This document shows positions 5,631-35,151 of a stretch of DNA of 35,446 nucleotides, piece after piece. The first letter of the stretch is position 1. Each line of letters begins with the position of its first letter. The position numbers were made by a program, and so were the translations under genes. The stretch is from IMG/VR virus record IMGVR_UViG_3300002460_000101, positions 1 through 35,446 of that record, one strand, 5' to 3'. The notes below the pieces were generated by a model. It was not told the DNA's origin and did no database searches. It saw only the letters and a program-made list of their open reading frames with translations. The stretch is from a virus.

Positions 5631-5737
5631 GTGACTTTGTTATTGCAGGAATAATGGTGCTTGGTATAGCTTTAGTGATATACATAGTGTATAAAATGGG
5701 TGATATGAATGGAAAAGGAAAACCAAATTATAATTAA
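5624..5737 (+). CDS. single-pass membrane peptide, 37 aa
   Basis: A 37-residue peptide with one strongly hydrophobic segment (about residues 5-23) followed by a Lys/Gly/Asn-rich polar tail, so probably an N-out or N-in single-span membrane peptide. A caagagggcaataaaATG site supports the start. The next gene starts inside its end in another frame. Similar small spans occur at 34262 and 35368. Confidence 0.5.
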   Translation: MVSDFVIAGIMVLGIALVIYIVYKMGDMNGKGKPNYN

Positions 5738-5963
5738 CTGCTTGTGCGGAAATAAAGTCAAGATAGAAGACGAAGGAAAATGCAAATCTTGTGCCATAAA
5801 AGGAAAAAATAATCCCATGTATGGAGTCCATAGATTTGGAAATACAAATCCGATGTATGGTAAACACTATATTAGTCATAGATTAGGTAAAAAATGTTCA
5901 GAAGAAACAAAATTAAATATGAAAAAGGCATGGATTATTCGGAAATTGAAAGGTGTTAAATGA
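5709..5963 (+). CDS. stand-alone NUMOD3 DNA-binding protein with zinc knuckles
   Basis: An 84-residue protein made of a zinc-ribbon start (Cys-Leu-Cys-Gly near 11-14, Cys-Lys-Ser-Cys near 26-29) followed by two Asn-Pro-Met-Tyr-Gly-type repeats (near 35-40 and 47-53) and Gly-Lys-Lys-Cys-Ser-Glu-Glu-Thr-Lys: the NUMOD3 modular DNA-binding motif of homing endonucleases. The HNH enzyme at 7136-7762 carries the same motif (Asn-Tyr-Phe-Tyr-Gly-Lys-His-His-Ser-Glu-Glu-Thr-Lys), but here no nuclease domain is present. It may be the remnant of a homing endonuclease, or a DNA-binding module taken over as a regulator. The start at 5709 overlaps the membrane peptide gene. Confidence 0.7.
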   Translation: MEKENQIIINCLCGNKVKIEDEGKCKSCAIKGKNNPMYGVHRFGNTNPMYGKHYISHRLGKKCSEETKLNMKKAWIIRKLKGVK

Positions 5964-6798: not shown

Positions 6799-6998
6799 AT
6801 GAACAATTAAGGATATTTGTTCCGAACACTGAAGAAAAAAAGAGAATAATAACCAACACTAAAGCCATAATATGCGTTATTGAAGCTCTCTCTTTAGATG
6901 AACAAATTGCTATTATGGTTATTTTAAGTGAATATTTCGAGAATAAGGGTTTTAACATTGAAGAAAGCATAATCAAAAAGATGAATTTTGATTCTTAA
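6795..6998 (+). CDS. helical hypothetical protein, 67 aa
   Basis: A 67-residue helical, acidic protein that overlaps the HTH candidate as ATGA, so the two are likely co-translated and may form a pair. There are no Cys, no membrane span and no recognised motif. It is the last gene of the rightward run; the gap 6999-7135 that follows separates it from the convergent leftward genes. Confidence 0.55.
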   Translation: MNEQLRIFVPNTEEKKRIITNTKAIICVIEALSLDEQIAIMVILSEYFENKGFNIEESIIKKMNFDS

Positions 6999-7012
6999 TA
7001 TATTATGTATTT

Positions 7013-7026
7013 CCTAATATATTAGG
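7013..7026. other. 14-bp perfect palindrome at the convergent gene junction
   Basis: CCTAATATATTAGG, a perfect inverted repeat, sits 15 bases after the last rightward stop and about 110 bases beyond the last leftward stop. It could be the core of a bidirectional terminator or a protein site. The remaining bases of the gap (7027-7135) hold no gene that I can support. Confidence 0.4.
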
Positions 7027-7135
7027 TATTTTAAAAGCAATTAGAATCGATTAGAACGGACTTTTCATTATGCCTATGATTAAGCCAAGAAGGTAAAGAA
7101 AAGCCGAACCTGACACTACCGTTATCGCTGTAAGC

Positions 7136-7762
7136 CTATATGGTAATCTTAAGGTAATCTTTATAACTTTTTATTCCATTTATTTGATAATTTAATATTG
7201 AAAAAGAAAGATATTCTATAGGTATTTTAAAAATATTTCTTTGTAAAGTTCGGAATCTTAAAATTACTTTTCTTCTATCTTTTTCTATTTCTGTAAGTCT
7301 TTTTCCTAATCTATTTAATCTTAATATTTCTTTTGTTTCTTCAGAATGATGTTTACCATAAAAATAATTTTCTATACCTTTACGTTTGCCAATTCTCATT
7401 AAACTCATATTTTTCAGATGTTCTTCAGTAAACTTTCTTCCATCATTCATTCTTAATCTTCCATCTTTTTTCATATGACACCACCTACAAAGATATTCCC
7501 AATCCATTATATCTCTTTTATATTCTCCAGATATATTTGCCGCATCATAAGGCGATTTAATCTTACAAATCTCACAAAGTTCAGGTTTAGGTTTATTTCT
7601 TTTAACCCATCCATGTAAAGCATTATAACTAACATTATTACCTTTCCATAATGGATGTTTTTCACCACAAACATGATTATTTTTATTCTGACAAGAACGA
7701 CACCTAATTGAACGAAGAATAATTAATTTTCCACAATCCCTACAATTACTTTTTTTTCTCAT
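7136..7762 (-). CDS. HNH homing endonuclease with NUMOD3 motif
   Basis: A 208-residue free-standing homing endonuclease. N-terminal zinc knuckles (Cys-Arg-Asp-Cys-Gly at 7-11 and Cys-Arg-Ser-Cys near 21-24) precede the HNH core: Cys-Glu-Ile-Cys near 63-66, Asp-Ala-Ala-Asn-Ile-Ser near 73-78 in place of the usual central His region, and Tyr-Leu-Cys-Arg-Trp-Cys-His near 89-95. A NUMOD3 segment (Asn-Tyr-Phe-Tyr-Gly-Lys-His-His-Ser-Glu-Glu-Thr) is near 131-142, and a basic tail binds DNA. The enzyme would nick or cut one target site to copy its own gene. It lies at the end of the leftward transcript, a typical place for an inserted selfish gene. The aaggtgaacttaaATG site is good. Confidence 0.85.
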   Translation of the reverse strand: MRKKSNCRDCGKLIILRSIRCRSCQNKNNHVCGEKHPLWKGNNVSYNALHGWVKRNKPKPELCEICKIKSPYDAANISGEYKRDIMDWEYLCRWCHMKKDGRLRMNDGRKFTEEHLKNMSLMRIGKRKGIENYFYGKHHSEETKEILRLNRLGKRLTEIEKDRRKVILRFRTLQRNIFKIPIEYLSFSILNYQINGIKSYKDYLKITI

Positions 7763-33228: not shown

Positions 33229-33851
33229 TATTCCTCTTTATCTTTTTCAGAATTATCTTGATTTTCTTTGGTTTCTTGCTTTTTTAGTTCCTTAATCCTA
33301 TTTTCCATATAGTTATCAGTACTGACATTACCGTGAACAACAGGGGGCAAGTCAGGGACAGTATCTTTATCGTAAAGGTCAGGATCCATTTCGATTAATT
33401 CGGCATCCTGTGTGAAACTGCTTTTGATTATTCTTGGATTATTCGAATCTAAATCGTATTTCATTATTTCTTTTACCACGTCCAGTTTCAATCTAACTAG
33501 TTTATGCCATTCTGCACTGCTCAACTTTTTACTCTGCCCGTCTATGAACTGTTGTAACTGGATCCTTGTTTGGATATCGGCTGCGTCCCTAATTAATACA
33601 GTAATTGGCTTTTTCCATTGTCTGATATTCTCAAAGTAAATCCTGCGTATATCCTCACAACCCCTCTGCTGCTGGGTCCGGCTCATTAATTTCCGGTACT
33701 CACAGTAATCGAACACAGGACAAGTGTCACAACCACCAAAGTTACGCATCTTAAGGCCAATTCCAACACTAGGCGTATTACTTACACTCTTGTTATGGTT
33801 AACTTCCTTTACAGGTTCAAGACGCTTTTCTTTTAAACTTTTTTCGTTCAT
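33228..33851 (-). CDS. terminase small subunit candidate with four-Cys cluster
   Basis: A 207-residue protein at the TerS position. Residues 41-65 hold Cys41-x2-Cys44-x5-Cys50-x14-Cys65, which could bind zinc or an iron-sulphur cluster; 68-135 is helical and basic; the end is acidic and disordered (Glu/Lys/Asp/Asn). Small terminase subunits recognise packaging sites through helical DNA-binding parts, but a Cys cluster is not a usual feature. The assignment is by position before TerL. The start overlaps the end of the 45-residue gene upstream as ATGA. Confidence 0.6.
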   Translation of the reverse strand: MNEKSLKEKRLEPVKEVNHNKSVSNTPSVGIGLKMRNFGGCDTCPVFDYCEYRKLMSRTQQQRGCEDIRRIYFENIRQWKKPITVLIRDAADIQTRIQLQQFIDGQSKKLSSAEWHKLVRLKLDVVKEIMKYDLDSNNPRIIKSSFTQDAELIEMDPDLYDKDTVPDLPPVVHGNVSTDNYMENRIKELKKQETKENQDNSEKDKEE

Positions 33852-33985
33852 TCCAGTTTTTCCATTTTGACTTCAGTTAACATCTTTACTATAGCCAATT
33901 TCTTGTTTGGTAAGTTATAGTAAACCTTAACCAAGTCAACTTTCTGGTTCAATTCGTCATCCAACTCTACTACTAATTTTACCAT
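33848..33985 (-). CDS. small ribbon-helix-helix-like protein, leaderless, 45 aa
   Basis: A 45-residue protein: one strand (Val-Lys-Leu-Val-Val-Glu-Leu) and two helices, the size and pattern of a minimal ribbon-helix-helix (Arc/CopG) repressor, though the strand is less basic than usual. It is the first gene of the leftward late operon. Its ATG is about 27 bases from a TATATAAA box, so its RNA should be leaderless. The stop overlaps the TerS candidate start. It could be an autoregulator of the late operon acting at the control region next to it. Confidence 0.5.
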   Translation of the reverse strand: MVKLVVELDDELNQKVDLVKVYYNLPNKKLAIVKMLTEVKMEKLE

Positions 33986-34007: not shown

Positions 34008-34015
34008 TATATAAA
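34008..34015 (-). promoter_or_regulatory. TATA box of the late operon
   Basis: TTTATATA on the minus strand, centre about 27 bases from the ATG at 33985, so a leaderless start. The sequence is nearly symmetric (TATATAAA on the plus strand), so it might also fire rightward into the control region. A single GTAACCA copy lies close by at 34035-34041. Confidence 0.65.
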
Positions 34016-34161
34016 GTTACTTATTGTTTCTAAAGTAACCAGAATCTTACATAGTTAGCCCGACTGGCGACTGAAGTCCTAAGTATTAAAGAGACACCAT
34101 ATAACTAAGAATAAGTGTACTAAAACAAAAGAATGAACTTAGCATCGAAGTTGACGTCTTG

Positions 34162-34209
34162 GGAATTCTGAGATCTTTCTGGAATATTGAAATCTTTCTG
34201 GAATTCTGA
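34162..34209. repeat. 19-bp tandem repeat, 2.5 copies
   Basis: Units at 34162-34180 (GGAATTCTGAGATCTTTCT), 34181-34199 (three differences) and a half unit at 34200-34209. It lies in the 600-base noncoding control region between late and early genes. Short tandem repeats in such a place are typical of replication origins or protein-binding arrays. The stretch 34016-34161 before it holds no gene that I can support. Confidence 0.65.
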
Positions 34210-34261
34210 CTAGCTTATGCCCCTATCCGCTGTCCGTTCTTGTTTTGGTTTCCTGAAGTCA

Positions 34262-34357
34262 ATGGATGTCCTTGGATGGCTTATAATGTGCTTGTGGGTT
34301 GTATTGGCATATTTTTTATTTGGTTATTGTGTGAGCATTGCATGGGCTTATGGTTGA
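34262..34357 (+). CDS. possible single-span membrane micropeptide, 31 aa
   Basis: A 32-codon frame within the control region. Nearly all residues are hydrophobic (Leu, Val, Trp, Tyr, Ile), so the peptide would be one membrane span. It has no ribosome site and no clear TATA box. It resembles in size the membrane peptides at 5624 and 35368. It may be chance in an AT-rich region. Confidence 0.25.
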   Translation: MDVLGWLIMCLWVVLAYFLFGYCVSIAWAYG

Positions 34358-34411
34358 TACTATAAGAGATCCTTACCTAAAAATTATGTGCCTCAACAAG
34401 TAGTTTAAGCT

Positions 34412-34445
34412 CCAAATAGACGCCAAATAGACGCCAAAATAGACG
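34412..34445. repeat. 11-12-bp tandem repeat, 3 copies, followed by an AG run
   Basis: CCAAATAGACG at 34412-34422 and 34423-34433, then CCAAAATAGACG at 34434-34445. A seven-copy AG dinucleotide run follows (34452-34465). The unit length is one DNA helical turn, so a protein bound to each copy would sit on the same face. It is placed directly before the GTAACCA array. Confidence 0.7.
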
Positions 34446-34472
34446 CCATTCAGAGAGAGAGAGAGTGTCAAG

Positions 34473-34599
34473 GTAACCACCATAGTAACCATAGGTAACC
34501 ACCATAAAGTATTTAAGTAACCATCACTTACAAAAGGGTAACCAAAATAGTATAATATAAGTAACCATAATAAATAAACGTGGTTACTGGGATGGTTAC
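34473..34599. repeat. helically phased GTAACCA array (operator, origin or partition site)
   Basis: Six direct GTAACCA copies start at 34473, 34485, 34495, 34517, 34538 and 34561, and two inverted copies (TGGTTAC) lie at 34581-34587 and 34593-34599. The start spacings are 12, 10, 22, 21 and 23 bases, and the inverted pair is 12 apart: all near one or two turns of DNA. The array surrounds a TATA-like box (34551-34560) and ends four bases before the ATG at 34603. AGGTAACCACCATA occurs twice (34471-34484 and 34493-34506). Likely the binding site of the protein encoded at 34603. Confidence 0.8.
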
Positions 34600-34602
34600 T
34601 AT

Positions 34603-34920
34603 ATGGCAAAACAAATTAAGATCAGTGATGAAGTTTATGCATTACTTCAGACAAAAAAAGGCGATTCATTCACCGATAAAATAAGCAACCTTTTGAGCCC
34701 GTCGGCGATTGAGACCACAGATGATCAGCCAAATAACCCAGATAAACAACCTATACAAGAGGACGCCCTACAAGATGTATATATCACACTCACCGACGTA
34801 ACTAATAAATTAGGACTATTAGAAACAGCCCTAAAAGGGACTAATAAACTGATCCAAACAAAACAAGAAGAAACAGAAGGCTATATCAAGGAAATGATGA
34901 AAGCAAACGGCTTAAAATAA
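34603..34920 (+). CDS. VapB/CopG-like DNA-binding protein with C-terminal coiled coil
   Basis: A 105-residue protein. Residues 1-32 match the archaeal VapB-like (DUF217/CopG family) ribbon-helix-helix pattern: Lys-Gln-Ile-Lys-Ile-Ser-Asp-Glu-Val-Tyr as the strand and first helix, then Lys-Lys-Gly-Asp-Ser-Phe-Thr-Asp-Lys-Ile. Residues 33-55 are a Pro/Asn/Asp-rich linker, and 56-100 a coiled coil of the leucine/threonine type. No VapC toxin gene is adjacent. The gene lies directly under the phased GTAACCA array, so the most likely role is binding that array as autorepressor, origin-binding or partition protein. It lacks a ribosome site, so near-leaderless translation is probable. Confidence 0.7.
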   Translation: MAKQIKISDEVYALLQTKKGDSFTDKISNLLSPSAIETTDDQPNNPDKQPIQEDALQDVYITLTDVTNKLGLLETALKGTNKLIQTKQEETEGYIKEMMKANGLK

Positions 34921-34922
34921 CT

Positions 34923-34972
34923 AAAACCTTTAATCAATACTTAAAAGTTTTAATAAAAAAACCTTTAATCAA
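34923..34972. repeat. 15-bp direct repeat flanking a small palindrome
   Basis: AAAACCTTTAATCAA occurs at 34923-34937 and 34958-34972, 35 bases apart, with the palindrome TTAAAA-G-TTTTAA (34941-34953) between. Two more TGGTTA(T/C) copies of the array motif follow at 34979-34991. It may be the terminator of the 34603 gene or a further part of the control region. From 34992 to 35150 there is no gene; a GC-richer patch at about 35030-35060 stands out but has no clear meaning. Confidence 0.55.
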
Positions 34973-35151
34973 CGCTTTTGGTTATGGTTACTACTTTACT
35001 ACTTTGGATCTGTTGTCTTCCTTATTATTCTGCGGGCTTCACTTGGCAGCCGGCCTTTACTCTGACTAAACTATAACTTACTACGAAATGACAAAAAGGG
35101 TAGGTATTTGAGTGGTATTGGCTGAAAGAATGAGTTAATAGTATAGAAAGA

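Follow-up and report, generated by a model that had tools for sequence, protein, structure and literature searches.

The closest described counterparts of the locus analysed here are ribbon-helix-helix (RHH) regulators of archaeal viruses and a plasmid partition protein. AvtR of Acidianus filamentous virus 6 represses its own gene and, according to dose, activates or represses a neighbouring RHH gene, covering about 100 nt between both promoters (PMC5569661). SvtR of SIRV1 also autorepresses. F55 of SSV1 binds to tandem repeats that lie at BREs and start sites, among them those of its own promoter, and both proteins have several viral promoters as targets (PMC5569661). In the omega (ParB)/parS system of pSM19035, a 7-bp non-palindromic word is present in direct and inverted copies at promoters, and each word is bound by one RHH dimer (PMC9499535).

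The window, that is, the whole stretch of 35,446 bases that was analysed, is a virus record without a terminal repeat and is probably an incomplete fragment. It represents a tailed virus, likely with an archaeal host, the host being suggested because the best phage match covering 80 % of the terminase is Halogranum tailed virus 1 (26 % identity) and because TTTATATA boxes are found at the main promoters of the record. To our knowledge, early/late control in tailed archaeal viruses has been little studied. The features of the window and of the contigs compared with it are listed in Table 1.

Ahead of the gene starting at 34603 (the 34603 gene), the window contains an array of short sites, and the positions of exact matches bore out the original prediction of eight GTAACCA copies, six direct followed by two inverted. 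The base preceding the core was always a purine (5 A, 3 G), giving the full motif RGTAACCA, the core of which, GGT-A-ACC, is a nearly two-fold symmetric word. Start-to-start spacings were 12, 10, 22, 21, 23, 20 and 12, so that the predicted spacing of 10-12 or 21-23 bases held for six of the seven intervals and failed for the interval of 20; the gaps between the sites measured 3-16 bp. In 60 genomes simulated with a third-order Markov model, in which the most frequent 7-mer per 130 bp was counted, any 7-mer reached a maximum of 3-4 copies per 130 bp, compared with 8 in the array. The sites are in phase with a period slightly above the usual 10.5 bp (R = 0.948 at the best period of 10.8 bp, R = 0.68 at 10.5 bp), and the best R was matched by 0.08 % of random non-overlapping placements (p about 8e-4), in agreement with the expectation that they lie on the same face of the helix.

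RGTAACCA occurred 10 times in the 35.4 kb record, always within the 957 bp from 34035 to 34991 around the 34603 gene, which adds a ninth and a tenth site (34035, 34985) to the eight reported earlier. Since there was no occurrence in the other 34.5 kb, with about 3.9 per record expected from simulation, the motif characterises a single locus rather than a regulon spread over the genome. Tandem duplication was rejected as the origin of the array, the flanks between the sites being unconserved, unlike those of the array in the related contig L151. A search of Rfam gave no match.

Table 1 Positions of the features discussed; coordinates refer to the window unless a contig is named
Feature	Position	Strand	Remarks
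Late genes	leftward from 33985	-	P45, 207-aa ORF, terminase, portal, major capsid
Early genes	rightward from 34603; 1 to about 7000	+	second part at the other end of the record
P45, 45-aa ORF	33848..33985	-	first gene of the late operon
Late-operon box TTTATATA	34008..34015	-	about 26 bp from the ATG at 33985
Ninth RGTAACCA site	34035..34041	+	20 bp upstream of the leftward TATA box
Direct repeats GGAATTCTGAGATCTTTCT	34162-34209		19 bp apart, in the same control region as the RGTAACCA array
AAATAGACGCCA x3	34414..34448	+	separate array, exact copies 11 and 12 bp apart
Array of eight RGTAACCA sites	34473..34599		exact GTAACCA cores
Direct cores	34473-34479, 34485-34491, 34495-34501, 34517-34523, 34538-34544, 34561-34567	+	
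Inverted cores	34581-34587, 34593-34599	-	
TATA-like box GTATAATATAAG of the 34603 gene	34550..34561	+	gap between sites 5 and 6
34603 gene	34603..34920	+	105 aa, VapB-type RHH N-terminus and long C-terminal helix
Tenth RGTAACCA site	34985..34991	-	just downstream of the 34603 gene
NUMOD3-containing protein	5709-5963	+	likely homing endonuclease or remnant
NUMOD3-containing protein	7136-7762	-	likely homing endonuclease or remnant
19-bp tandem repeat TTCCTAATATATTAGGTAT	6992-7031		where the early and late transcription units converge
L151 array	L151:450-700		ACATATG-type words about 20.4 bp apart, R = 0.99 for CATATGTA
L140 array	L140:187-420		AGTATTAC-type words at multiples of about 10 bp, weaker, R 0.58-0.72
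GTAACCA/TGGTTAC clusters	L028:653-808, L016:5995-6370, L110:9993-10185, L023:4315-4480		noncoding, in unrelated phage contigs

The array surrounds the TATA-like box and the start of the 34603 gene, as had been proposed, sites five and six flanking the box and sites seven and eight lying at the predicted start and immediately ahead of the ATG. Given the usual archaeal distance between TATA box and start site, transcription is predicted to begin near 34581, a position coinciding with the first inverted site; its inverted neighbour stops three bases short of the ATG. A bacterial-type reading of the promoter (CTTACA-18-TATAAT, 34527-34556) likewise lies inside the array. The separate AAATAGACGCCA copies are followed by a GA tract, and their exact core is absent elsewhere in the record. 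They are possibly sites for a second factor.

On the other side of the control region, the predicted promoter of the late operon is of the leaderless type. This promoter, together with the overlap of the P45 stop codon with the start of the next gene (ATGA at 33851-33848), makes it probable that P45 is a real gene. Inspection by eye showed agreement of P45 with the RHH sequence pattern, and a CopG regulator (7by2) ranked second among its sequence matches in the PDB, with a weak E = 1.2. A Pfam scan of P45 gave no match, and its structure was modelled as a single helix with low confidence. An RHH-like nature of P45 is thus possible, on the sequence pattern only.

The 34603 gene is the first of the rightward operon. 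The predicted VapB/CopG-like N-terminus joined to a coiled coil was recovered as a match of residues 3-32 to PF02697 (VAPB_antitox), barely above the cut-off (28.2 bits against 27.9) and spanning only profile positions 1-32 of 69, and as a confidently modelled long helix at residues 53-101. The structure model also placed two N-terminal helices (residues 9-15 and 22-30) and no strand in a part of low confidence, and the protein had a weak match to PRK13696. PIN toxins (PF01850) had no match anywhere in the record, which agrees with the earlier observation that no toxin lies nearby.

Like that of AvtR, the control region of this RHH gene lies opposite a second gene of RHH or RHH-like type and carries numerous sites spread over roughly 100 nt; autorepression combined with an effect on the neighbour, as proposed here, would be a further common trait. 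AvtR differs in having two RHH motifs per chain and a longer, imperfect palindromic consensus, whereas the 34603 protein has one VapB-type RHH and a predicted coiled coil, and its sites are short and near-identical. F55 and SvtR are also small viral RHH proteins that act at their own and other viral promoters, as would the 34603 protein, and F55, too, has tandem short repeats over the start site and the BRE. Their motif words are different, however, a sequence relation to the 34603 protein is not established, and each promoter bound by F55 has one or two sites, each made of two tandem repeats, instead of eight phased sites. Repeated sites overlapping the regulator's own promoter, a feature common to autoregulators of the AvtR, SvtR and F55 type, are present here. 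With omega/parS the locus shares a 7-bp word in both orientations at promoters and, we infer, one dimer per word; the parS heptads are contiguous and have a ParA partner, whereas here the sites are spaced by helical turns and no ParA was found. VapB antitoxins share the N-terminal domain match, but the 34603 protein has no toxin and a predicted long helix replaces the C-terminal half. The array and the RHH protein most likely form a switch of a familiar type whose layout is unusual.

The array is probably the operator of the 34603 protein, which would control its own early promoter. This reading is supported by eight phased sites far above chance and by an adjacent gene encoding a protein of a DNA-binding family with a long predicted C-terminal helix. 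Of the origin, partition or switch unit originally suggested, the part best supported is an operator serving the neighbouring RHH protein, the sites lying around the promoter and start and the motif being confined to the locus; origin and partition functions found no support in this fragment, with no ParA-type ATPase detected in the record and no replication initiator among the Pfam-scanned early genes. Each RHH dimer would occupy one RGTAACCA site, and, with all sites on one face of the helix, adjacent dimers could bind cooperatively over about 130 bp, perhaps tied together by their C-terminal coiled coils. Full occupancy would cover the TATA box, the start site and the ribosome-binding region and so shut the early operon (autorepression). 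Bound to the single site at 34035, which lies just ahead of the leftward TATA box, the 34603 protein could raise or lower expression of the late operon. The result would be a concentration-dependent early/late switch.

The binder could instead be another viral or host protein. That the array serves another regulator (P45, a viral regulator encoded outside the fragment or a host factor), with the 34603 gene merely the first gene regulated, is unlikely. P45 is a second possible RHH gene divergent to the 34603 gene, the triple AAATAGACGCCA array close by points to a second factor, and the record, without a terminal repeat, is probably incomplete; the motif, however, clusters at the start of the 34603 gene and not at that of P45, and the RHH regulators described in archaeal viruses as a rule bind at their own genes (PMC5569661). 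A role as replication-origin iterons, recognised by a replication protein encoded outside the fragment, appears quite unlikely for the sites. The GTAACCA clusters of unrelated phage contigs, which may themselves be origin iterons, adjoin large ORFs resembling primases or helicases by eye (L028, L016, L110, L023, L058), but they were found by searching with the same word and their layout differs. The cumulative GC-skew also has its minimum at the array locus, but it is uninformative on an origin because the change coincides with the switch of the gene strand. Moreover, no initiator or helicase was detected among the Pfam-scanned early genes, and the TATA box, start site and RBS that the array overlaps all belong to a single gene.

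If the array were a partition centromere and the 34603 protein acted as ParB-like RHH partner, the pair would resemble the omega-type RHH ParBs, which use 7-bp repeats in both orientations overlapping promoters (PMC9499535), but this reading is very improbable: ParA-type ATPases (PF13614) had no match in this partial record, and omega parS needs at least 4 contiguous heptads and fails with gaps (PMC9499535), which are present between all sites here. Equally improbable is a VapBC remnant, in which the array would be the operator of a toxin-antitoxin locus that has lost its toxin; the N-terminus does match VAPB_antitox, but the record lacks a PIN domain, and the toxin-binding part of the profile is unmatched, a long helix being predicted in its place.

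Searches of viral, genome, phage and plasmid collections yielded no usable homologue of the 34603 protein, the HGTV-1 match being weak (E = 3). Among 38 virus records (the present one and 37 relatives) PF02697 matched in the present record only, and a profile search of the virus records with PF01402 gave nothing over the cut-off. Searches with the major capsid and the terminase gave only distant relatives (TerL at most 40 %), all lacking the RGTAACCA array. Among the matches listed, the GTAACCA clusters of other viral contigs were coding repeats or unrelated phage regions, and none adjoined a relative of the 34603 protein. In two of the relatives, L151 and L140, other arrays occupy the equivalent position ahead of the late operon. 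They may have arisen by tandem duplication, and both contigs end before the early gene is reached. This hints that control regions bearing arrays recur among the relatives while the words change.

A bolder extension of the operator reading can be put forward, although it is unlikely: a toxinless VapB-type protein with a coiled-coil tail would form a one-sided nucleoprotein filament on a helically phased array and serve as an early/late (or lysis/carrier) switch throughout a lineage of tailed archaeal viruses in which each virus has its own array word at the same place. The locus is compact and the operator reading gives a sharp prediction, namely one protein, ten sites and two divergent promoters. 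If it is true, a VapB-type domain serves as a stand-alone viral regulator.
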